A stretch of DNA of 18,321 nt from a bacterium. Its GTDB lineage: Bacteria > CSSED10-310 > JAJRTK01. The stretch spans positions 1-18,321 of the forward strand of contig JAJRTK010000490.1 in assembly GCA_024278345.1 (NCBI GenBank), given 5' to 3'. The notes beneath the pieces are model-generated. The model saw nothing but the letters and a program-made list of their open reading frames with translations, was not told the DNA's origin and did not search any database. Positions 1-18,321 of this stretch are shown piece after piece. How positions within the stretch are numbered: the first letter of the stretch is position 1; every line of letters starts with the position of its first letter. The position numbers and the translations under genes were made by a program.

Positions 1-29
1 ACAGCTTTCTGGAACAGGCAAGAAAATCA

Positions 30-67
30 AGAGGGCACCGAGCTTCTCCACTCGGTGCCCTCTTTTT
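30..67 (+). terminator. Strong factor-independent terminator (probably bidirectional)
   Basis: A 13-bp perfect stem pairs 30-42 with 51-63 around an 8-nt loop and is followed on the plus strand by a run of T (63-67). It most likely ends a plus-strand gene lying left of the window. On the minus strand the same hairpin is followed by a T-rich tract (complement of 21-29), so it could also stop transcripts leaving the kinase operon. The hairpin is read directly from sequence; bidirectionality is inferred. Confidence 0.85.
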
Positions 68-247
68 GTACAGAGTTTCCGGAGAAATCCCCCTCACGAA
101 CCTACGGCGGCGTCTAATGAACCATCCCCGAAGTTGGAACGGTTCACGCATGAAGACACGGATGATGCTTCGGTGCCCAAAATGCGAGTGGGGGCGACCG
201 GATGGACGGCGCCGTGAGCGGACCCAAGGATAGGGTTTTTGCCGATA
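68..247. other. Intergenic stretch with no recognised gene
   Basis: Between the left-edge terminator and the weak hairpin near 251-275 I see no credible coding frame, RNA gene or repeat. The short open frames here have no ribosome binding site and no recognisable protein character. Confidence 0.5.
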
Positions 248-279
248 AAGGGCGCCAAGCTCTTCAGCCGGCGCCTTTT
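248..279 (-). terminator. Possible terminator after the kinase / repeat-protein genes
   Basis: GGCGCC at 251-256 pairs with GGCGCC at 270-275 around a 13-nt loop. A and T residues flank both arms (AAAG before, TTTT at 276-279). It sits about 40 bp beyond the stop of the proline-rich repeat gene, where an operon terminator is expected. The U-tract is better in the plus direction than in the minus direction, so the minus-strand assignment rests mainly on position. Confidence 0.4.
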
Positions 280-312
280 CCGGTGTCTTAGAACATTGAT
301 GAATTGTTCTGC

Positions 313-807
313 TCAGCTCAGGCGGGTCTCGTTGGTCTCGGGCTGCGGACCTTCCAATGTGTTCGGCGTCGTTCGCCCCATGGTTCCGCCGCGGCCGCGG
401 TCAGCAATGGGCTCGGTAGAGGTCGCGAGTGTGGATGGAGGCGTATCATATCCCATGGTTCCCCCCCGGCCACGGTCGGCGAGGATCGTCCTGCCATTCG
501 GTTGGCTCGAAGGCAACGTCTTTCCCATGGTCCCTCCACGCCCTCGATCCACAATGGGTCCCATCCCAGATCGTTGACTCCGTGATGGAGGTCGGCCTGG
601 CATGGGGGACATGGACCGGGTAGGGCGCTGCGGCTGAACGGCCGGTTTATAATTGGATGTCGTCGTCGAAGGTGCGGACGGAGGTTGAGAAGAACCGGAT
701 TGAGTCGATTTGGGGGGGGCCGGTGTCGGCGCAATCGGCGCCAGCGGTCGAGTAACGGATGGGTGATGATTCGATGATGTCTTGCTGGGGCCAGTGGGAG
801 TGGGCAT
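313..807 (-). CDS. Proline/Ser/Thr-rich protein with three DRGRGGTMG repeats
   Basis: I do not recognise a family. The product is about 164 residues and probably disordered. The N-terminal half is rich in Pro, Ser and Thr, and the C-terminal half carries three copies of D-R-G-R-G-G-T-M-G (DNA 523-549, 451-477, 376-402) spaced 24 and 25 residues apart. The copies differ almost only at third codon positions, indicating selection on a protein sequence, with the caveat that an antisense frame shares the same wobble positions. I chose ATG at 807 because a GGAG lies 7 nt upstream; an in-frame TTG at 855 would add 16 residues but has no ribosome site. No signal peptide or membrane segment is visible. 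It starts 52 bp after the Ser/Thr kinase gene on the same strand, so it is probably cotranscribed. Each repeat offers one Thr, making it a candidate kinase substrate or FHA-domain ligand. That role is inference only. Confidence 0.6.
   Translation of the reverse strand: MPTPTGPSKTSSNHHPSVTRPLAPIAPTPAPPKSTQSGSSQPPSAPSTTTSNYKPAVQPQRPTRSMSPMPGRPPSRSQRSGMGPIVDRGRGGTMGKTLPSSQPNGRTILADRGRGGTMGYDTPPSTLATSTEPIADRGRGGTMGRTTPNTLEGPQPETNETRLS
376..549 (-). repeat. Three degenerate coding repeats (DRGRGGTMG)
   Basis: Copies of 27 bp lie at 523-549, 451-477 and 376-402, separated by unrelated spacers of 45 and 48 bp. The nine encoded residues are identical in all three copies while the nucleotides vary mainly at third positions. 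This indicates old copies held under protein-level constraint rather than a recent tandem duplication. Confidence 0.8.
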
Positions 808-859
808 ATGCATTCTCCATGAAGGGACAAAGGGTTCTTCCTTGATTATCGGCAAATGT

Positions 860-3800
860 TCATGGCCGTTGCTCCTGATCGGTCGTTTTCCTTGGATCCG
901 TGGAATCTTTTTGAGATTGGACGATCATGGTCCTTTCAAAGGCACTTGCCATCTTACTCGTGCTGGAGAGCTCGACCCCCAAATCCAGGAAGGCCTCACT
1001 GAGCTCATCCGGCTCGGCAAAGTGAAGGGCGAAGGTCAAGATGCGCACGGCCATGGGCGTTCCCAGAAAAGCCCGACGGTGTTCGGCAGGGATGGCGGCC
1101 GAAATCTGGTAGAGCAAATCGAGGGCTTCGTCACAGGTTCTCCAGGCCTCCTCTGGTTGCCCACTAAGCTCTTTGCAGGCGGCGAGGACGAATGCCGCGC
1201 GCATCTGCTCTTCGGGCTTGCCGCCCTGCTCTGCCGCCTCATGGACCTCCTGCGCCAGCAAGGCCGCTTTATCTTCTGCCCCGGAATCCAGGAATGCCTC
1301 TGCCACGGTCAAACTGAGGTCCAAGTTCCGCATGACCGGGCTGGACTCCCGAAGCTGAGCCAATAGGCTCCATAAGAGTTCCCGATCCGACGCCTGGACT
1401 CCTCCCACACACAAGCTTCGAATCTGGGCGGCGGTAGCGTAGCTATGAGCTCCAGCATCTTCACTCCGGCTCAGAGCCGTCTGGTAGGAGGAGCGAGCTT
1501 TCTCCAGCTCTCCTTGCTGTTCATCGATCCACCCCTTGGAAATCCACTGCCCGGCAAGCTGAGAGGTGAGCTCAAGTTCTTTGGCAATCTGCTGGGTTCC
1601 GTCGAGATAGGCCATCGCCTGTTGGTAAGCGCCAAATCGAGCGACCACCAAAGAGAGATCCCAAAGGGCTTGAGCCAGAAAATAGCGGTTTTCCGCTTCT
1701 TCCGCAAGCTCCACAGCCTGCTTCCCGACCTCATAAGCCCTGCCATAGCGAGCCTGATAGAAGTGGAGCTTGCTTTGATTGATCCGACAAATGAGAACAT
1801 CTTGTTGCGCCCCTAAAGCCTGGAGCTGCAGCAGAGCCGCGCTAAGATGTTCTTCCGCCCGATGGAGATCATCGAGCTCCAGATAACAAATTCCCAAACG
1901 CATCATACTCTGGGCCCCCCCGTAGACCTCTCCGAGGCGCTCGAATAGATCCAGGGCTTTCTTCAAGTATTCCATGGATTTTTCGATATCGCCATGGAGA
2001 AAAAAACCCACCCCCAACCCGCTGAAAAGCTCGGCCACTTGCAGACGCTCCCCTGCATCCACGTAGAGTTCCAAAGCCTTCCTGTGGTGTCCAAATGCCT
2101 CCTTGAACTTGTCCTGAAATCCGATAACGCGAGCGATCTCTCGATGGCAATCGGCCGCTCCCTTTCCCTCTCGGAGCTGTTCAAAGCGGGCCATTGCTTC
2201 TTTGAAATCGGCCAGAGCTTCGGAGTTGTTGCCCAGTCTTGCTTGGGCAATGCCGCGCCACAAGCGTGCCTGGGCCCACCGAGTTGGTGAAGCCGGGAGA
2301 TCCTCCACCAGTTTCTCGAATTCGGCGAGCGCCTCGCGGTTCTCTCCCACATGGAGGAGAATCTCCCCCAGAGCCTGCCGGCAATCGAAGCGACTTCCCT
2401 TGAGGGCGTCAGAGAGCGTCCCTGTTTTCGCATCAAGAAGCCCCAATGCTCGACGAAGCTGAATAATGGCAGCGTCGTTATGGTAACCGCGCTTGAGGGA
2501 AAGGCCGGCGAGCGTGCAATATTCCGTTGCCTTTTCCTCGATTCCCGCGAGGAAGAAGTGCTGCGCCAAGAGCTCCAGGTAGGGCTCGACATCAGCGGAA
2601 TAAAGGCGTTCCGCGGCCATGGCGATCCGTCGATGCCAAGCCAACCTGCGCCGCGCCGTAAGATCGCCGATGACGACTTCCCGCACTTTTTCGTGGCAGA
2701 ACTCGAACTCCTCTCCGGTTGACCGGTTCTCCTTGACGATATCAGCCCGAAGCAATCTGTCCATGCAGTCAAGAAGCAGATCCTCGCCAGAAGCCACGGC
2801 ATCCAAAAGGAGATCAAAATAGAATTTCCGGCCGATCACCGCCGCACAGCCAAGGATCTTGAGGTCTTCTCCGCTTAGGCGATCAATACGCTTTTTCACG
2901 ATATCCTTGATACTGGCTGGAATCTTCAACTGGCTGTAGGTTCCCAAATCTGATGGATCCTCCTTTCCCGCCGAATCCAGCTGAAGATGCCACTGGCCCT
3001 TTTGTCGCACTAACACTCCGTCATCGAGGAGTGATTTCATCATCTCCTCAAGAAAAAATGGATTTCCCTCCGATTCCCGGTAGAGTCGACCGGCCAAACG
3101 AGCAGGAGCCTCCGGCATGGATAACATTGACTGAACGAACTCCCCGACCTGTCGCTCTTCGAGGCGTTCGAGGCGCAAGACCCGGCAAAGCCCCTTCTGT
3201 TGGAACCTCCGCACCAGCGACTGGACAGGGCGGCCTTCCATCTCGTCAGGACGGAAGGTGCCCAGGATCAAGATTGGAGTCGTGAGGGTTCCCTCCGCCG
3301 GAGAAACTTGGCCGAAACGCCTACTCAGGTGGGCCAAGAGATCGGCACCCGGGGCGGTCATCCACTGCAGATCCTCCAGAACCAGCACGAGATGCCCACG
3401 CCGGGCAGCGGCCATGAGCAGGTTCGCCACGGCGGCGAAGAGAAGGTAGCGTCTCTTTTCCGGAGAATCGAGTGGCGGAAGGTGTGGCAGACGGGGGTAG
3501 ACGTCGGTTCCCGAGAACGAAAGGACGATATCGGCCAAGGCCCGCCCCTCGGCTCCGAGAGCCTCGATCTGTTCCTCCAACGGCCATCGGGACAACCGCT
3601 CCACGAGCTTCCCCAAAACCACGGACCAGGCGCCATATGGGGAGTCGCCCCACTCGAAACATGTCCCGACGACGGATCGCATTCCCCGGAGATGGATAGA
3701 GACCTGTAACTCCTCGATCATCCGGCTCTTTCCAATCCCGGCTTCTCCAGCAAGAAAGAGCATATCCCCCCGACCCGCCTGCAACTCATCGAGCTTCGCG

Positions 3801-7734: not shown

Positions 7735-9504
7735 CTATTGGTCGCCCTGCTTCACCCGCTCCAGTAGCTCTGGATGATCCGGAGCTAGGAGTAATCCCCT
7801 GCGATAAAGCTCCTGGACGTCTTCCATACGTCCCTCTTCTAGCGCCAGGTCAGCCTGTTCCAAAATGAGCTTGACCTTGGAGTGAACCCATCGCCGCTTC
7901 CGGGCATCCTTGGTAAACTGATGGTATTCGTTGTGGTCTGGGTATTCCTCCGCGAGCTCTTTGTACAGGGTTGCGGCAAGTTCGTAATCCTTGGTCAAAA
8001 AGGCATCCCGTGCTGCCTTTTCCTGTTTTTTGCGACGGTCAGCCCTCAGTGCCGCGGTGGCGGCAAAGGAGATTTTTTCGCGCCATCCCGCCAATTGAAC
8101 ATCGCTCGATCCCAGCAGTTCCCCTGCGTCACGAGCGAGTCTCTGGGCTTCCTGATAGCGGTCATTCCACAACTCCCATTCGGCCCTGCCCAAGTATCCA
8201 ACCCCCGTCATGGTTGTGGGCCATCTTGGAAAGAGCAGCGTAAATGCTACGACAATCGCTACGATAACGGCTAGTCCGACCCCTTTTTTTCCCACGGAAC
8301 GAAGCCACGGAGGCAGGCTCCTACGAGGCGGCGCAAAGCTGGAGGAATCTTTCTCCTCGTCCGTAAGCTCCTCCTCCCTGGTCTGGTAGGAAACTTCGTC
8401 ATAGTAAGCCTCGTGGATGACCGGTTCTGGCATGAGCAAATCGGTGTTGGCGGAAACCGCTTCTTCCTGGTCCGGCTCTTGTGAGGATTCATCCCGAAGG
8501 GGGCGATAGGCTTTGCGTGCCCGCTCACTGGACGCCTCGCCGCTGGCCTGTCCTCTCGGCGCGGCCCACCGATGATGATCGCCAAGACCAGCTTGTCCCC
8601 CTCTCTTCTCCAGATCGCCAGTGGTCCCCACGAAGGTCCGCCGCTGGGGCACCGCCGCCGAATCTGGCAACGCCCTTCCCACCGCCCGATCCCAAAGATC
8701 CTCGATGAGCTCCTGCAGGCGGTCTTCCATTTCCCCCTCAGTGAGCAATCGGCTGCTCAGGACCGCGTGAAGACCGTCCGCTACGTGAGAATAATTGACC
8801 TTCGTCTTGCCGCGTAGATAAGCCACTACCTTGGCCACCCGTGCAAGCTCCAAGATGGCGTAGGAACTGACGCCAGGCCAACCAGCCTGCTCCAGTAGGT
8901 CCGGCAGTCCCTGGAGCGCAATCTGAAGATCCTGTGGCATCCAGACCTGCTTGATGCGCCTTCGCAGATCGCTGATATCCTCCGGTAATAGCTGCCCAGA
9001 ACCCAGCATGTCGGGCTCCAAGCTTGACGACAGTTTCTCCAAGGACTCTTCGAGCTGCTCCTGGAGCACAATGGTGAACATCTCATCCCAAAGTGGGCGC
9101 GCTGGGTCATCGAGCCGAGGCAACGCTGATGGACTGGTGGTCGCCAAGATGAAGCATGGTTCTTCCATACCTGGATCGGCCTCAAGGGAAGCACGAGTCA
9201 GCACTTTACGAAATTCTCTTAGGCGCTCGGTATTGAGGTCTTCAATCAGGATTACATGGGGCAATTGCCGCCGTTTTCCACGTTTTTGAAAACGAAACGC
9301 TTCCTCTGCTCCAAACCGGTGGATCACACCATTGAATGCCCAGCCAACCGCATTTGCCAGATCCAGGGCATGTTCTCTTCCGGGGATCAACAGTGCATGC
9401 CCTCCGGCCAGGAGAGCCAACACAGCCTGCACGGCTGTAGCCGGATCACCTTCGTAAAGGGTCAAGACTTCTGAGATCAGTCTTTGTGCTTTGGCTCTGG
9501 ACAT
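7735..9504 (-). CDS. MoxR-like AAA protein with decayed P-loop, membrane anchor and TPR-like tail
   Basis: The protein has 589 residues. Residues about 24-255 follow the MoxR AAA plan: LLAGGHALLIPG (31-42) matches the segment leading into Walker A, VILIEDLN (84-91) the Walker B strand, FILATTSP (118-125) sensor 1, and GVSSYAILELARVAKVVAYL (211-230) with RGKTKVNYSHV the C-terminal MoxR lid. The GxGKT core is replaced by GREHA (42-46), so ATP hydrolysis is doubtful. A low-complexity linker (about 285-400) leads to one hydrophobic helix (409-426) and a helical TPR-like tail (430-589), presumably across the membrane. The start overlaps the end of nuoI by 28 bp with GAGG upstream, suggesting translational coupling. 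MoxR proteins usually aid metalloenzyme assembly; a scaffolding or assembly role for the respiratory subunits is inference. The gene ends with TAG. Confidence 0.65.
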   Translation of the reverse strand: MSRAKAQRLISEVLTLYEGDPATAVQAVLALLAGGHALLIPGREHALDLANAVGWAFNGVIHRFGAEEAFRFQKRGKRRQLPHVILIEDLNTERLREFRKVLTRASLEADPGMEEPCFILATTSPSALPRLDDPARPLWDEMFTIVLQEQLEESLEKLSSSLEPDMLGSGQLLPEDISDLRRRIKQVWMPQDLQIALQGLPDLLEQAGWPGVSSYAILELARVAKVVAYLRGKTKVNYSHVADGLHAVLSSRLLTEGEMEDRLQELIEDLWDRAVGRALPDSAAVPQRRTFVGTTGDLEKRGGQAGLGDHHRWAAPRGQASGEASSERARKAYRPLRDESSQEPDQEEAVSANTDLLMPEPVIHEAYYDEVSYQTREEELTDEEKDSSSFAPPRRSLPPWLRSVGKKGVGLAVIVAIVVAFTLLFPRWPTTMTGVGYLGRAEWELWNDRYQEAQRLARDAGELLGSSDVQLAGWREKISFAATAALRADRRKKQEKAARDAFLTKDYELAATLYKELAEEYPDHNEYHQFTKDARKRRWVHSKVKLILEQADLALEEGRMEDVQELYRRGLLLAPDHPELLERVKQGDQ

Positions 9505-10046
9505 TGGATCGCCTCACACTCGATTTCGCCAGCGGCCAGTCTGTTCCGGTAGCGCTGGGTATCCTTGCCAAGCTCGAGCATCCGCATTCTGTCGAGAACC
9601 TGGTCCTCCCTATTCGTCATGATGAGAGTAACGGTCTGGCTCATCTCCAAGGCATCGGTAGGACATATTTCGACGCATAAGGAACAGAGCATACACCGTT
9701 GAAGATCGACCTCAAAAGTGGGGATCAGGGCCTTTTTCTTCTTTTCCTCGAACTTTCTGCCCAGGAGCTCCTCTTTGCTGAGCTTCCGCATCTCCACGGT
9801 GAGGCAATCCACGGGACAGATTTTCACGCACTGCATACAACCGATGCAAAGATCGTCGCCATATTTATCGGGAATCAGCGCCAAGACTCCCTTTGCGCAA
9901 GAAGAGAACTCTCTTTTCTCAAAGGGGTACATCACGGTGACTGGATGGGAGAAAAAATACTTAATGGTCACGCTAGCGCCAGCTACCAGATCGCTGGGAT
10001 CAGCCATGGCGACGGCTTTGGAGAGGAATTCCTTGAGTTTGGACAT
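9477..10046 (-). CDS. nuoI: NADH-quinone oxidoreductase subunit I (two [4Fe-4S] clusters)
   Basis: An electron-transfer subunit of respiratory complex I that carries clusters N6a and N6b and relays electrons toward NuoB. It has 189 residues. Two 8Fe-ferredoxin motifs are complete: C67-x2-C70-x2-C73-x3-C77 (CIGCMQCVKIC) and C118-x2-C121-x2-C124-x3-C128 (CMLCSLCVEIC). A 40-residue lysine-rich insert separates them. The N-terminus HPVTVMYP resembles the usual NuoI membrane-docking segment. I placed the start at ATG 10046 with GAGG about 10 nt upstream; an in-frame GTG at 10097 would add 17 residues. It follows nuoD closely and overlaps the decayed MoxR gene. In most complex I operons nuoH separates D from I, but not here. 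The fold could also serve an Fpo-like or hydrogenase-type complex; NuoB, C and D next door favour complex I. Confidence 0.92.
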   Translation of the reverse strand: MSKLKEFLSKAVAMADPSDLVAGASVTIKYFFSHPVTVMYPFEKREFSSCAKGVLALIPDKYGDDLCIGCMQCVKICPVDCLTVEMRKLSKEELLGRKFEEKKKKALIPTFEVDLQRCMLCSLCVEICPTDALEMSQTVTLIMTNREDQVLDRMRMLELGKDTQRYRNRLAAGEIECEAIQCPEPKHKD

Positions 10047-10106
10047 AGCACTTAGCCTCGTTTTCTGTTGTCCGGCGGAAGGAGGGTCTCCAGCCACCGG
10101 TGCCGT

Positions 10107-11240
10107 TCAGCGATCAACCTCTCCAAGAACAATGTCGATGCTTCCGATGACTGCAACGACATCCGCGAGCAACGCTCCCCTGATCAAAACGGGTAAGGCC
10201 TGGAGATTAATGAACGAGGGGGCTCGAATCTTGACCCTGGCTGGCTGCGTTCCGCCATCGGAATAGATGTAAAACCCGAACTCTCCCCGCGGACTTTCCG
10301 TGGCATGGTAAAGCTCGCCCTTGGGCGCCTTTAGCCGCTTCGGCACCTTCCCGATGAACGGCCCGGATGGCAGTTGATCCACACACTGGCGAAGAATCCG
10401 TAGACTCTGGTTCATCTCCTCCATCCGTACGAGGTAACGTGCATAAACATCCCCCTCTTCTTGGGTTGGAATGTCGAAATCCAAGCGATCATAGATTTCG
10501 TATGGTTGCTTCCGGCGGAGATCCAAAGCAATGCCCGATCCACGAATGAGAGGACCGCTGAGCCCCCAATCAACACACTCATCGGCAGTGACAACACCGA
10601 TCCCCTTGGTGCGGCGGAGCCAAATCCTGTTCTTCGTCAAGAGCTTATGGTAGTCGGAAAGGCGTGATGGAAAAAGATCCAGAAAGGCCTCTAGATCTTC
10701 CAGCCAACCTTTTGGGAGATCGTTGGGGAGACCGCCCACACGGAAGATGTGGGTGGTCAACCGGGCGCCCCCGAAACCCTCGAACAGATCAAGGACCATC
10801 TCGCGCTCGCGAAAACAATAAAGGAAGAGCGTCAAGGCTCCAATGTCCATGGCGTGGGTCCCAAGCCAGAGCAGGTGGCTGGCCAGCCTGGTCAACTCGG
10901 CAATGATGACCCTTATGTACTTGGCACGCTCCGGTACCTCAAGCTGCAACAAGCGTTCGCAAGCCTCGACCCAGGTCAGATTCATGGCTGGCGCCGCAAT
11001 GTAGTCCAGGCGATCCGTGTAGGGGGTGAATTCCACGTAGGGCAGGTTTTCAGCGGTTTTCTCCTGTCCTCGATGCAAGTATCCGATATCGGAATCACAA
11101 TCGACGACATTCTCCCCTTCAGTCCGCAGTATGACTCGCAACACGCCATGCGTCGCCGGGTGCTGCGGGCCCATATTCAGGATAAAATCGCCTTCCTTTT
11201 CACCGGGTTCCAGGAAGGCTCCGACGGTTCCGGTTTCCAT
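10107..11240 (-). CDS. nuoD: NADH-quinone oxidoreductase subunit D (49 kDa)
   Basis: Together with NuoB it forms the quinone-binding site of complex I. The protein has 377 residues. GPQHPATHG (24-32) contains the loop whose conserved His lies at the quinone pocket, followed by GYLHRG and the long 49-kDa core, ending in the typical GSIDIVLGEVDR. The N-terminal CxxC of NiFe-hydrogenase large subunits is absent at the equivalent place, supporting complex I rather than hydrogenase. I chose ATG 11240 because GGAG lies 7 nt upstream. A TTG at 11315 overlaps the nuoC stop and would prepend a hydrophobic stretch not expected in a cytosolic subunit. It lies 71 bp after nuoC, in the same transcription unit as nuoB, nuoC and nuoI. 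Confidence 0.95.
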   Translation of the reverse strand: METGTVGAFLEPGEKEGDFILNMGPQHPATHGVLRVILRTEGENVVDCDSDIGYLHRGQEKTAENLPYVEFTPYTDRLDYIAAPAMNLTWVEACERLLQLEVPERAKYIRVIIAELTRLASHLLWLGTHAMDIGALTLFLYCFREREMVLDLFEGFGGARLTTHIFRVGGLPNDLPKGWLEDLEAFLDLFPSRLSDYHKLLTKNRIWLRRTKGIGVVTADECVDWGLSGPLIRGSGIALDLRRKQPYEIYDRLDFDIPTQEEGDVYARYLVRMEEMNQSLRILRQCVDQLPSGPFIGKVPKRLKAPKGELYHATESPRGEFGFYIYSDGGTQPARVKIRAPSFINLQALPVLIRGALLADVVAVIGSIDIVLGEVDR

Positions 11241-11311
11241 GCTCATGCTCCAACCCATCGGGACGATGGCCGAAACGGCGGACAAAGCCGCCGCCAATGG
11301 AATTCGCTGTA

Positions 11312-12478
11312 TCAATCGAAAGAATAGGGCTTGGTCTCAGTTTCCAACGGGATCTTCGCCAGCCTTTCTTGAAGAATTTCCTCCGACCGCTCTCGGAATC
11401 CTCTCCAGGGGTAGTCCTTCCGCAATGGATGACCCTCCCAGTACTGGGGCAAGAGGATCCTCCGTAAATCCGAATGCCCGTGGAAGTGAATGCCCAGCAT
11501 GTCGTAGGCCTCTCGCTCCTGCCAACCCGCGGTAGGCCAGAGGTCAGCAACGGAATCCACGGAAGGTGCCTCGGCGGGCAAGAGGACCTTGACCCTCACC
11601 CTTCGGTTGTACGGCGTGGAATACAGCTCCAAAACCACCTCGCACCGAGGCTCAGTGCCAACGTAATGTGCCCCGGTCAAGAGTGAAAGATAGTCGAAGC
11701 GCAAAGCGGCCTGGTCCCGCAGGTGCCGGCAGAGCGAATGGTATCCGCCAGACCGCACAACGATGGTATCCTCGCCGTAGCGATTGTACACGTCCGCGAC
11801 GATTTCGGAGTGCGCCGCAGCCACGTCCCGGACAAAACCGGAGGGCTCTTTTTCCGGAGCCTTGACCACCTTTTTCGGGCGCCGAACGGGCCTCTTGCGA
11901 GGAGCCGCAGTTTTTCGAGGCATCTTGGAAGCACTCACTGGCGGTTTCGCCGAAGGCTTCCTTTCCTCCAGTACAACGACCTCTTCCCCGGGCTCTGCTT
12001 CCGCGCTCTTCTCCTGGGGCAGGGCCTTTGGCGGTTCTTCAGGGGCTATAGTTCCCTTCGGGGACGCCTCTTCCGCGCTCTTCTCCTGGGGCAGGGCCTT
12101 TGGCGGTTCTTCAGGGGCTACAGTTCCCTTTGGGGACGCCTCTTCCGCGCTCTTCTCCTGGGCCTGGGCCTTTGGCGGTTCTTCAGGAGCTACAGTTTCC
12201 TTGGTGGAAGCCTCTTCCCCGGGCTTTGCTTCAACGGGGACACTTTCATTCCCGGCTGAGCCAGTTTGTTCCCCTTCGGGAGTGACCTCCTCCTCCCCCT
12301 TGATTGCTGACATGCCGCCTGCCATCTCGCTGGCTGAGGCGCTGTTGGTGTCGAGGGATTCACCGCCGACTTCTTCCTGGCTTGCCGAGTTCGAACCGGC
12401 AGAGGGCTCCTGGGGCAACTCTGTGGGGCCATCTGGCTCCACAGAGGCTCCCGCCTCCTTGTCATGCGTTTCAGCCAT
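11312..12478 (-). CDS. nuoC: NADH-quinone oxidoreductase subunit C with long acidic repeat extension
   Basis: The 30-kDa subunit of the complex I peripheral arm, with 388 residues against about 150-220 usually. The conserved core is residues about 214-388, including GWQEREAYDMLGI and WEGHPLRKDYP. Ahead of it lies a disordered extension of about 213 residues: an acidic Ser/Glu-rich part (1-88), three 24-residue repeats rich in Glu, Pro, Ala and Lys (about 89-160), and a strongly basic Pro/Lys/Arg patch (about 185-212) resembling histone-H1-like tails. I chose ATG 12478, with AAGGA 8 nt upstream; ATG 12556 would add 26 residues. An internal ATG at 11923 would give a near-normal NuoC but has no visible ribosome site. 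The extension shares a frame with the core, with no stop between. Its function is unknown; a linker or tether role is inference. Confidence 0.9.
   Translation of the reverse strand: MAETHDKEAGASVEPDGPTELPQEPSAGSNSASQEEVGGESLDTNSASASEMAGGMSAIKGEEEVTPEGEQTGSAGNESVPVEAKPGEEASTKETVAPEEPPKAQAQEKSAEEASPKGTVAPEEPPKALPQEKSAEEASPKGTIAPEEPPKALPQEKSAEAEPGEEVVVLEERKPSAKPPVSASKMPRKTAAPRKRPVRRPKKVVKAPEKEPSGFVRDVAAAHSEIVADVYNRYGEDTIVVRSGGYHSLCRHLRDQAALRFDYLSLLTGAHYVGTEPRCEVVLELYSTPYNRRVRVKVLLPAEAPSVDSVADLWPTAGWQEREAYDMLGIHFHGHSDLRRILLPQYWEGHPLRKDYPWRGFRERSEEILQERLAKIPLETETKPYSFD
11999..12214 (-). repeat. Three 72-bp in-frame tandem repeats inside nuoC
   Basis: Units begin at 11999, 12071 and 12143. The first two differ at only two of 72 positions; the third is more diverged, mainly in its last part. 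Each unit encodes 24 residues built around A-P-E-E-P-P-K-A and Q-E-K-S-A. The high nucleotide identity of two units implies a recent duplication, and copy number is likely to vary between strains. Confidence 0.95.
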
Positions 12479-12650
12479 CTGTTCCATCCTTACGCCGCAC
12501 TCGACCGTTGCGACCTTCTGACGTTGGATCTTTCTTCGCCGTTGGGAGCATATCATAGGGTGGGCTTCAGACCCGCCTACTCGTCATGCCCTTCCTTTCG
12601 GAGGAAAGGTGCTAAGCCTGTTCACTAGGTGCAACGGTGAAAAACTGGGG
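12479..12650. other. nuoB-nuoC intergenic region
   Basis: A gap of 172 bp, long for adjacent nuo genes. It holds a small hairpin on the minus strand (CCTTTC, loop ctcc, GAAAGG, around 12592-12607) without a U-tract, and an in-frame upstream ATG for nuoC at 12556. I see no convincing promoter or terminator. Confidence 0.4.
12487..12491 (-). promoter_or_regulatory. Ribosome binding site that supports the nuoC start at 12478
   Basis: The minus strand reads AAGGA at 12491-12487, eight bases before the ATG at 12478. This favours translation of the whole extension rather than starting at the conserved core. Confidence 0.6.
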
Positions 12651-13157
12651 TCAAGCCTGGCCCACAAGCTCGGGGTATTTCTGTCTGGCTACCGAATCCT
12701 TCTCGATGAGCTTTTGGAGAGCGAAAATCCCCTCCATGAGGGCTTCTGGGGTTGGAGGGCACCCGGGGATATAAATGTCTACGGGAATGATCTTATCGAC
12801 GCCTTGCAGAACCGCGTAGTTATTGAATGGGCCCCCGGCATTTGAGCAAGCGCCCATGGAGATGACCCACTTGGGCTCAGGCATTTGATCATAGAGGCGC
12901 TTCACGACTTCGGCGATTTTGAAGTTTACCGTTCCCGCGACGATCATGACATCGGATTGACGGGGCGTGGCGCGAAAGACTCCGGCTCCAAAACGATCCA
13001 GATCGAAACGTGGTGCCCCCACGGCCATCATTTCAATGGCGCAGCAAGCAATGCCAAAGGTCATGGGCCAGAGCGAAGACTTTCGGGCCCAATTGATCAA
13101 TTTGTCGGCCCGAGTCGTCAGATAATTTTCGTTGAATTGGCGATCGAGAAGTCCCAC
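12651..13157 (-). CDS. nuoB: NADH-quinone oxidoreductase subunit B (cluster N2)
   Basis: Carries the terminal [4Fe-4S] cluster N2 that reduces quinone. The protein has 168 residues. All four ligands are present: tandem C38-C39 ([11 protein letters not shown]), C104 (MGACSNAGG) and C133 (PGCPPTPE), with spacings of 65 and 29 residues as in canonical NuoB. The GTG start at 13157 gives [16 protein letters not shown], the usual NuoB N-terminus, and follows a strong GAGGGAG. The frame stays open upstream to 13298, but that part is Pro/Arg-rich and unlike NuoB. It is the first gene of the nuoBCDI block; nuoA, which normally precedes it, is absent here. NuoB-like proteins also occur in hydrogenases, but the NuoC and NuoD partners argue for complex I. 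Confidence 0.95.
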
Positions 13158-13159
13158 GG

Positions 13160-13166
13160 CTCCCTC
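13160..13166 (-). promoter_or_regulatory. Ribosome binding site that decides the nuoB GTG start
   Basis: The minus strand reads GAGGGAG at 13166-13160, two bases before the GTG at 13157 (GAGG alone is five bases away). Together with the family-typical N-terminus it rules against the longer in-frame start at 13298. Confidence 0.75.
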
Positions 13167-13541
13167 ACTTGCAAGATTGTCCAGCCTGGGAACACGGCCA
13201 AAAGCCACGAAACAGGCCAACAGATCTCCGTTGTGCCACATCCCCGGCCAGGACCTGGGAGGCGGCGGTCCTCGATTTTTAGGGGTCGGCCAGGCCAATC
13301 ACCCGTGGGGCCTCAACTGGGCCTCCGGGGCAGAGAAAAAATTACTCTAACACAAGTTTCATCAAGCGCAACCTTAGACGCTGTGACGATCCCTGGTGGA
13401 ATCCACGGGCACGTGCCTCAGTGTAGAAAAACAGCCCCCGGCGAGAAGAAAGGCGACCAGCGCCGGACGGACTGCCGGCGATGGGAGCGGACACAACGCC
13501 CAAAAAGAGGGACCAGCCAGATCCAGTCCCACTCTTCAAGG
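13167..13541. other. Long gene-free leader upstream of nuoB
   Basis: The 384 bp between the DUF3352 gene and nuoB contains no nuoA and no other credible gene in any frame. A 65-codon TTG frame on the minus strand (13342-13539) is Arg/Ser-rich and unsupported. The stretch holds a weak terminator-like hairpin (13427-13466), an AT-rich tract (about 13335-13372) with only poor promoter matches on the minus strand (TTGATG, 15 bp, TAATTT), and a GC-rich leader of roughly 180 bp before nuoB. A nuo operon promoter is expected here but I cannot fix it. Confidence 0.5.
13427..13466 (-). terminator. Weak terminator candidate after the DUF3352 gene
   Basis: CCGGCG (13461-13466, minus strand) pairs with CGCCGG (13438-13443) around a 17-nt loop, with five T's (complement of 13427-13431) six bases later. 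The stem is short and the loop large, so support is modest. Position, about 75-115 bp after the stop, is reasonable. Confidence 0.3.
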
Positions 13542-16124
13542 CTATTTCAAGGAATCCAAAATTCTCTGAAACGCCGGTTGATGCGCCTCACAAGCATTTA
13601 CGGCACACTGCATGGAAAGGGTGTAAAGGTTCGCGCCATCCTGGAGGTAGATGAGGCGGATTCTCTGCCTTCCACCGTCAGGACCCAGCTCGTAAACGAG
13701 CTCCGCACCTGATAGCCCACCAATAGAAAGCGCGCCCTCGCGGACAACCTTGAAACCTTCGGTGGATGCTGACGCCGATTTCACCTGGTTCAGCATCGCC
13801 TCTATCTGCATGTGGGGCGAATAGGGGGTCTTGAGCCAATTCACCGTCCCCTTATAATCGGCTGAAAGATAAGAGACCATAGTCTCCGAGGAGCTGCTGA
13901 CGCTCCAACCTTCTGGCGAGGCAGGAGGTCCGATGGGTTTATCTGATCCTGGCTCCGTGACTTGGGCACCTGTGGAATCAGGGATCGCGGCTACCGTGGT
14001 GGTGTCCGCCGCCGTGGAAGCGACTGGCTCCTTGACTTCCTTGGTCTGCTGAGGCTCCGGGGCTTTTTCTGATTCCTGGGCTCCGGCTGGCGGTGAAAGT
14101 GGCGTCTCGCCGGTGGATGTGCCTGGTTTGTCAGCCCCTTCCGCTCCAGGTGCTGACGCATCAGTCTCATGCCCCTCTGAAGGCGTCGAAGCCGGCTCCA
14201 TTGGCTTTGGTTCTTCCTTCACGTGGGATGGCGCGGCCTCCTCTTCCTGGTGGGATTCCTCTTTTCGCGCTTCTCTTTGGGCTTTCCTGCGCTTCTTCCT
14301 GGATATCTCCTGGAAGAGGTTCGCGCCGCCACTCAAGGCCACCTGCCCCAGATAGCCGAAGGGTGAATAGTGCTCTGCCACGGCGCCTTGGGGAGTATTG
14401 ATAGAACCGCTGATGAGCGGCGGAATCAGCGCGGTGATCTCTTCTAGCTTGGGCAAAGTGTCGAGATCAACGGGAAGGGGTTGTCCCTTGCTCTTCATGG
14501 ACTCGGCGTAGCCAAGGCCGAGGTTGCCAGAGATGGTGAGAAGCCTTGGGATATCGAAGTATCCCACCTGCGTTCCTGGGGCATGGTTGAGTGTTTCGAG
14601 GGCTTTCTTGTATCCCGGCGCTTGCTCGATGTTGACGGTACGTCCCTGATAGGTATCGACTGCTGCTCTCAAGGTCGTTTCGTTCAGGGCGATGACCAGG
14701 ACATCCCCAATGGTGGCATATCCGGAGAGAACTGGGGAATAGGGGACAGTCACCAGGCGGAACTCGACGTTCTGGTAGTTCTGACTCGAGACGTTAATTC
14801 CGGCCTGCTGGAGGAGCGCTTCCAGTTTGGGAAGGAGGGTCTGTCCTTGGCTCAAACCAATGTAAAGAGCCAGCTTCGCTTCGTTGAGTTTGCCCAGGCC
14901 GGCAACGGGGTTGTCAATGAGTGCGACCGGCAGGTCCGGAATCGTCATGCTGAGGCCCAGCTAGCCAGAGAGGGAAGCCAAGACATCTTCCACAAGATCG
15001 AAGTTGGTTTCTTTCTTGAATTCCGCCAGCGCCTGGTGGAGCGCCGCGTCCATTTCGCTATGGACGTCAGTTGGCAGTTTTTCTTTTAGCAGGCCCAACA
15101 CATCGTCGTACAGGCCTTTCACGGCACCGAGGTTTCCGGCACTATAAAGGATCGAATCCTCCGGGGCCATTCTGATGCTGGTGAGGGGCGCGCCTTGGGA
15201 CTTCGCCATGAGCTTCACGATTCCATCGGCCTGTGTGCCATAGCCCAACGCCACTCGATCCAGCACGCCGCCATGGACGATGCTCATGGAGTAGCCCAAG
15301 CCTGCTAAGGTATCGAGGGCAAGGATATCGAACACCATTTGCGCCTCTTTGCCGCCTTCTTCCACGATCAAGGGTCGGATCAGCTCGGTGATCGCGCCGG
15401 CATTGAGGTAGAAAAGGGCAAGGTTGTCTCCGCCCACTTTGGAGTAGACCCATGAGAAATCGGGATCATCCTTGAGAGTCTTGTGGGAAGGACGAAGGAA
15501 AACCGATTGTAGGAGGTCCGCTCGCGAGGCTAGAACAAACTTGCCGTCGCGGACGATTCCGAAAAACCTAAACCCATCTTTCCCCTTGGGACCGACGGTA
15601 TAGAGGGTCGAACCATTCCAGTCCGACTCGGACCAATGGTCCTGACGGCGCTCGATTTCTTCCTTGAACATGGGGACGAATTTATCCCAGAGTGTTTGCC
15701 ATTGGGCTTCACGCCCCGTCAGGTCGAGGCTCCAAACAAAGCCAGGCAAGGCTTCTTCACTCTTCAAGGCCTGAATATCCAGGTCGGTGAGAGCAAAAGT
15801 CATCTTGCCGCCAAGCACTTTCCACACGGTGTCAAAAGGAATTTGAGTCTCTTGCTCGAACGCCGTCGCCACCTCACGCCAGCCGCTCCGCACTGCTTCG
15901 GCCAGCGGCGGGATTTTCTCCCCCACCTTCCACAATCCGGTGGTCCGGAGTTGTGCCTCCATCTCGTCGAGTCCCGCCATGGAAACGTAGACCAAGGTGC
16001 CGGTGGGCAGCGCGCTGGCCTCCGCATCACTGGCAAAGCCCCCCGCAATCGATACGCCAGGCACGAGCCCTATCACGAGGGCTACAGTCACCAGCCAAGA
16101 AACGCTTCTTCGTTGTCGTTTCAT
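13542..16124 (-). pseudogene. Exported DUF3352-type protein interrupted by an in-frame amber codon
   Basis: The gene reads as one frame of 860 residues with a single TAG at 14963-14961 (codon 388). Residues 1-27 form a Sec signal peptide (basic start, hydrophobic core, VSIA before the cut), so the product is periplasmic or surface-bound. The body resembles DUF3352, a family of unknown function that often carries a conserved G-E followed by a hydrophobic strand just where TAG falls; TAG is one change from GAG (Glu). Past the stop the same frame continues for 472 codons with domain-like sequence: more DUF3352, a Lys/Arg then Pro/Glu-rich linker, and a C-terminal region resembling PsbP/DcrB-like domains ending FQRILDSLK. 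A GGGAG precedes the ATG at 16124. It could be a recent nonsense mutation, readthrough, two polypeptides, or a sequencing error. Confidence 0.7.
14961..14963 (-). other. In-frame TAG inside the DUF3352 gene
   Basis: The minus strand reads L-S-G, TAG, then L-G-L-S-M-T-I in the same frame, with no ribosome site before the next ATG at 14948. Amber also ends mtaB, the MoxR-like gene and this gene itself, so general recoding of TAG is unlikely. Confidence 0.9.
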
Positions 16125-18107: not shown

Positions 18108-18110
18108 TGG

Positions 18111-18321
18111 GTATCCACGCAAGGCGGGACAATGGCTCGGAAAAAAACTTGGCTTCGGACAACGCCGCGCTCCGCTCGGCGGTGGTCCGGGGACTCCGTC
18201 CCCGGTCCCCTGGCAGGGCTTCGCCCCGCACCCACCAGGGAGCTAGCTCCCTGGACCCACATTTTTTGTACGCTTCACATTTTCCTTTTTTTTCCTGTTC
18301 TGTCCCGCCTTGCGTGGATGC
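18111..18321. mobile_element. MITE-like palindromic element with 19-bp perfect terminal inverted repeats
   Basis: ATCCACGCAAGGCGGGACA at 18113-18131 is repeated perfectly inverted at 18301-18319, and the outermost bases 18111 and 18321 also pair. The interior is noncoding and packed with hairpins: 18163-18167/18177-18181; an 8-bp stem 18187-18194/18198-18205; GGGC-ttc-GCCC at 18216-18226; and a perfect 20-bp palindrome at 18235-18254. No transposase frame is present. It begins three bases after the PATAN stop. The window stops at the right repeat, so target-site duplication cannot be checked. It may instead be a structured intergenic repeat family. Confidence 0.65.
18235..18267 (+). terminator. 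Terminator candidate for the PATAN gene inside the repeat element
   Basis: The 20-bp palindrome at 18235-18254 is followed by six T's (18262-18267) on the plus strand, with an intervening ACCCACA. The gap is longer than ideal, but a hairpin plus U-run 130 bp past the PATAN stop could end its transcript. A second T-rich tract follows at about 18278-18295. Confidence 0.45.

Follow-up and report, generated by a model that had tools for sequence, protein, structure and literature searches.

The window, by which we mean the entire 18,321-nt stretch analysed, is the whole of contig C434 in a genome of 6.06 Mb (550 contigs, 88% complete). It carries the complex I genes nuoB-C-D-I together with the gene of a protein combining an AAA lid, a single transmembrane segment (TM) and TPRs, and its principal features are these:

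12651-13298, minus strand: nuoB, start uncertain (NF005012, E 4.8e-75; cluster N2 cysteines present)
12487-12491, minus strand: ribosome binding site AAGGA, 8 nt upstream of the ATG at 12478 (read from the sequence)
11312-12478, minus strand: nuoC, 388 residues including a 213-residue N-terminal extension (open frame, ribosome site, PF00329 at E 1e-41)
11840-12478, minus strand: N-terminal extension predicted to be disordered, residues 1-213, net charge -16 (composition; low pLDDT for residues 1-190)
11998-12218, minus strand: 72-bp tandem repeat in 3.1 copies, giving three 24-residue E/P/K/A units at residues 88-159 (TRF, codon comparison)
11840-11962, minus strand: basic patch, residues 173-213, net charge +13 in 41 residues (composition, shuffle test)
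11396-11761, minus strand: Complex1_30kDa core (PF00329), residues 240-361 (profile match at E 1e-41, Foldseek match 8qby_C)
10107-11315, minus strand: nuoD, start uncertain and probably inside the frame (TIGR01962, E 2e-153)
9477-10097, minus strand: nuoI with two CxxCxxCxxxC 4Fe-4S motifs, start uncertain (TIGR01971, E 1.7e-27; motif check)
7735-9504, minus strand: AAA-lid/one-TM/TPR protein of 589 residues (PF17863, AAA_lid_2, E 6e-6; TPR_14), its frame overlapping the nuoI stop by 28 nt

The nuoC frame runs free of stops for 388 codons, from the ATG at 12478 to the stop at 11312-11314, and its product matches PF00329 with 142.8 bits (cut-off 22.5) and, narrowly above the cut-off of 122.45, TIGR01961 with 123.7 bits. 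In an AlphaFold model computed with a 33-member alignment, the pLDDT is about 45-59 at residues 1-190 and 84-98 from residue 201 through most of the core, with a confident NuoC fold from about residue 211. Foldseek matched this core to Paracoccus NuoC and to other complex I structures, the best match being 8qby_C (E 1.1e-16, rmsd 1.4 over 143 columns), so that the core, as modelled, is an ordinary NuoC fold. Since its first modelled element is a helix at residues 214-222 and the PF00329 match covers residues 240-361, 213 residues precede the first core element. The preliminary description of this DNA had assigned complex I subunit C to positions 11312-12478 without stating the strand; the assignment and its coordinates are right, as the profile match, the fold and the nuoB/nuoD/nuoI operon attest.

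That description had also placed the extension in frame behind a good ribosome site, which is what we observe. Codon statistics favour the annotated frame across residues 1-86; in the repeats (residues 87-160) one antisense frame scores equal to it, and at residues 160-213 no frame is favoured. Because of this tie and this indecision we infer translation of the tail from the ATG at 12478, for which the context speaks well. It is highly improbable, to a degree that makes it the least credible reading we weigh, that NuoC instead begins at the in-frame ATG at 11923 or later and that the extension is untranslated. That ATG exists and is the next strong alternative start, codon bias gives little guidance at residues 160-213, and translation of the tail is itself inferential; however, AAGGA precedes 12478 and no ribosome site precedes 11923, the frame is stop-free with coding-like codon use over residues 1-160, the repeats stay in frame (72 bp being a multiple of three), a late start would leave 0.7 kb empty within the operon, and relatives carry real, if shorter, tails.

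Glutamate makes up 19% of the extension, proline and alanine 14% each, and serine and lysine 10% each, while a composition count of residues 1-213 returned no F, W, Y or C. Consistent with the charge-segregated, low-complexity chain that had been described, the region is predicted to be disordered and its parts follow in the order given at the outset: an acidic head (residues 1-70, net charge -15), the three E/P/K/A repeats, and a Lys/Arg/Pro/Ala-rich, histone-tail-like basic patch. The segregation of charge is pronounced, the best 40-residue stretch (+13) having been equalled in 0 of 20,000 shuffles. TRF scores the repeat at 379 with 93% matches; two codons distinguish copy 2 from copy 3, and between copies nonsynonymous changes are no rarer than synonymous ones.

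The composition of the patch invites the idea that it localises the complex by binding to nucleic acid, to ribosomes or to anionic lipid. We regard this as very unlikely: although +13 in 41 residues of histone-tail-like sequence is what such binding might use, composition alone is unspecific, the patch occurs in no relative examined, and we found no complex I precedent in this analysis.

Long disorder is not peculiar to NuoC in this genome. Among 204 ORFs sampled from it (272 kb), nine contain disordered stretches of at least 100 residues, the NuoC tail being the longest; also among the nine are L147, a protein of AKPE repeats, and the DUF3352 protein encoded immediately upstream of nuoB. This genome is thus given to long disordered repeats, a point in favour of the tail being partly neutral in origin. 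The L147 frame (3-1097, plus strand) opens with a run of PAEAKPEAKP-type repeats at least 205 residues long and is cut by the contig end. The DUF3352-type protein (13542-14948, minus strand) has a 154-residue acidic, Pro-rich disordered stretch of its own and is followed by another DUF3352 gene at 14961-16124.

Elsewhere in the window, the gap between nuoB and the DUF3352 gene holds an intergenic repeat of about 70 bp (13438-13507), which is matched at six other places in the 272 kb (79-90% identity); Rfam returned no match for it and no RNA family anywhere in the window. Another, dispersed repeat (18109-18319) recurs as matches of 40-220 bp at 74-99% identity; of 25 further stretches sampled from the genome, at least 12 carry copies, which often lie at contig ends, and the repeat is likely one cause of the fragmented assembly. 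A Pro/Ser-rich ORF at 313-855 (minus strand), downstream of a Ser/Thr kinase-TPR gene, contains three RGRGGTMG repeats, and codon statistics do not support its being coding.

The redox motifs of the complex I cluster are intact, namely the cluster N2 cysteines of NuoB and both 4Fe-4S motifs of NuoI. Contig C154 holds nuoA-H-J-K-L-M-N, and nuoE, nuoF and nuoG occur neither there nor with nuoB-C-D-I in the window, in a genome that is 88% complete. The single NuoF of the genome is on contig C374 and belongs to a second complex I, whose other genes lie on C259 (A-B-C-D-G-H), C348 (E-J-K-L) and C105 (L-M-N). Given the missing E, F and G and the location of the sole NuoF, the window set would be part of an 11-subunit, NuoEFG-less complex I, a pairing with C154 that follows from the subunit count. 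The NuoC of the second complex, which has NuoE, F and G, has a clear start and no tail.

To place the tail among its relatives, 290 genomes were searched for PF00329, gene neighbourhoods were retrieved for about 100 NuoC genes, and the presence of NuoE, F and G was recorded. Open-frame length was rejected as a proxy for tail length, most long NuoC frames being read-through of the upstream nuoB region (for example in the GC-rich genomes of L049, L050, L052 and L058), and starts were therefore re-scored using the upstream gene end and the ribosome site. An automatic charge threshold was likewise rejected, as it counted the L050 read-through and missed L051, L065 and L077; because of these misjudgements the final coding of tails was done by hand.

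Among the 104 NuoC genes examined, the window tail is the longest believable one. Acidic tails of low hydrophobicity, 26-55 residues long, occur in eight others (L051, L131, L067, L087, L068, L065, L077 and L081), all in NuoEFG-less clusters. In a tree of 96 rows of concatenated NuoD and NuoC, the window gene and these eight relatives fall into one ten-member NuoEFG-less clade with a weak SH-aLRT of 82, the window being sister to L051/L131 (SH-aLRT 98). Nine of the ten members have an acidic tail, the exception being L104, and in the nearest, sister family f142, acidic tails of about 30-38 residues are conserved in 15 of the 15 genes with a readable N-terminus. The preliminary description had stated that NuoC normally starts close to its core; this agrees with the exceptional length of the window tail but does not hold for the clade, nor for NF005832, a NuoC model that is itself long. 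The search for extended homologues which it had proposed yielded the eight shorter acidic tails and none as long as that of the window.

By hand coding, an acidic tail is present in 9 of 30 NuoEFG-less clusters and in 0 of 59 clusters containing NuoEFG or NuoG (Fisher p 2e-5). Many other NuoEFG-less NuoC are without a tail. On the tree the character changes twice, and the association of tail with NuoEFG status is not significant, with only 3-5 independent pairs; the independent-pair test is without power because the tails sit in one clade and are not repeated gains. The 24-residue repeats and the basic patch were found in none of the tailed relatives, and tail length and sequence vary freely within the clade. 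Because acidic tails run through a clade of NuoEFG-less complexes, sequence comparison indicates that the tail is a lineage trait, apparently enlarged in the window gene by tandem duplication and an added basic patch.

The two other genomes of the window's phylum in which NuoC was found carry other types. A scan of genome contigs by the whole protein, in which half of the search patterns fell within the extension, returned only two distant NuoC; a plasmid search matched the NuoC core only; and the literature search brought up no paper directly on a NuoC that is disordered or has tandem repeats. At L054 (9000-12100) and L055 (7400-10300) there is a split cluster of another kind, nuoB-D-I-C with EFG not in view, in which the N-terminal region of NuoC is charged, helix-like and at least 60 residues long.

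A largely neutral expansion, in which a short tail at a permissive terminus grew harmlessly by tandem duplication and serves at most as a partner-less solubility bristle, is almost as likely as the flexible electrostatic tail proposed below and is its strong rival. The repeats are recent and near-identical (93%), with the excess or parity of nonsynonymous changes noted above; length and sequence are free to vary in the clade, of which L104 has no tail at all; and long stretches rich in E/K/P/A also occur elsewhere in the genome, for example in L147 and in the adjoining DUF3352 gene. Against neutrality, acidic tails are kept in the clade and in f142, a persistence that suggests some constraint, and the basic patch is strongly segregated.

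A more specific function would involve the neighbouring gene, which had been called a membrane-anchored MoxR-like protein. The membrane anchor stands, as there is a single transmembrane helix near residue 408, and the protein has C-terminal TPRs; the MoxR likeness stops at AAA_lid_2, since neither a Walker A P-loop (GxxxxGK[ST]) nor an AAA_3 domain was found in the protein, whose single-sequence structure model has a pLDDT of 46. In E. coli, the MoxR protein RavA and ViaA bind NuoCD anaerobically and have been proposed to aid Nuo maturation (PMC3893208), and the idea that the tail is an assembly or maturation handle, bound by a MoxR-type chaperone for this complex, therefore deserves consideration despite the missing P-loop. 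The gene overlaps nuoI on the same strand, and the E. coli NuoC domain, which has no cofactor, steers assembly (PMC7050243). We nevertheless consider such a handle improbable, given that the neighbour shows a lid domain only and that the E. coli RavA-ViaA/NuoCD interaction needs no tail.

From these observations we tentatively favour, while thinking it somewhat likelier to be wrong than right, the hypothesis that the disordered tail on NuoC of this 11-subunit complex I acts electrostatically, as a flexible bristle or tether, at an exposed donor face. A short acidic ancestral tail of about 30-50 residues would have grown by duplication of the 24-residue unit and by gain of the basic patch beside the core. 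As the NADH module that would cover NuoI and NuoC is absent, the electron-entry face would be exposed, and the tail may surround it. The core-proximal patch could draw in ferredoxin or another acidic donor, by analogy with cyanobacterial NDH-1, and capture of a partner by the tail is possible; the acidic repeats could give reach, solubility or competition. Counting against donor attraction, the relatives' tails are acidic without a patch and would repel an acidic ferredoxin. The bolder proposal that the tail substitutes for part of the NADH module, its patch capturing a soluble donor, its acidic repeats gating access and its length tuned across the clade by tandem duplication, is unlikely, if a little less so than the assembly handle. 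How 11-subunit complex I is supplied with electrons is an open question (PMC11238625), for which a clade-specific tail on a subunit of the exposed peripheral arm offers a concrete, removable element; were the tail neutral, it would still plainly illustrate how repeats can lengthen a core subunit of respiration.

Several known systems resemble the window complex in part. The 11-subunit complex I of Desulfitobacterium hafniense (nuoABCDHIJKLMN) also lacks EFG, its donor is likewise open, and such enzymes have been proposed as docking platforms; we found no NuoC tail mentioned for it (PMC11238625), and the window operon, by comparison, is split over two loci. In cyanobacterial NDH-1L, which is without NuoEFG, ferredoxin is bound at the tip, in a pocket of strong positive charge, for which NdhO, held in part by the NuoC equivalent NdhJ, supplies N-terminal lysines (PMC7021789). 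There the positive patches are on NdhI, NdhH, NdhV and NdhO, whereas that of the window is on NuoC; NdhJ, with 168 residues in the PDB chain, has no such tail. NuoC length is known to differ between organisms (PMC7050243). The short-tailed NuoC of the clade (L051, L131 and others) share the operon type, the tail position and the acidic head with the window protein, but at 26-55 residues have neither the repeats nor the patch. NF005832 (PRK07735), which we take to be the Bacillus NuoC, presumably also part of a complex without NuoEFG and bearing a charged tail rich in Ala, Lys and Glu, is a model of 430 positions that, like the window protein, has a very long N-terminal region before the core. 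The window NuoC aligns to it over its core only (positions 292-423; 134 bits, far below the cut-off of 431); the extension does not align, and, in a comparison with the model only, the 24-residue repeats and the basic patch belong to the window protein. Very long NuoC N-termini are therefore already known from NCBIfam NF005832, and what is new here is the repeat-built, charge-segregated form, its NuoEFG-less setting and the clade-wide acidic tail.
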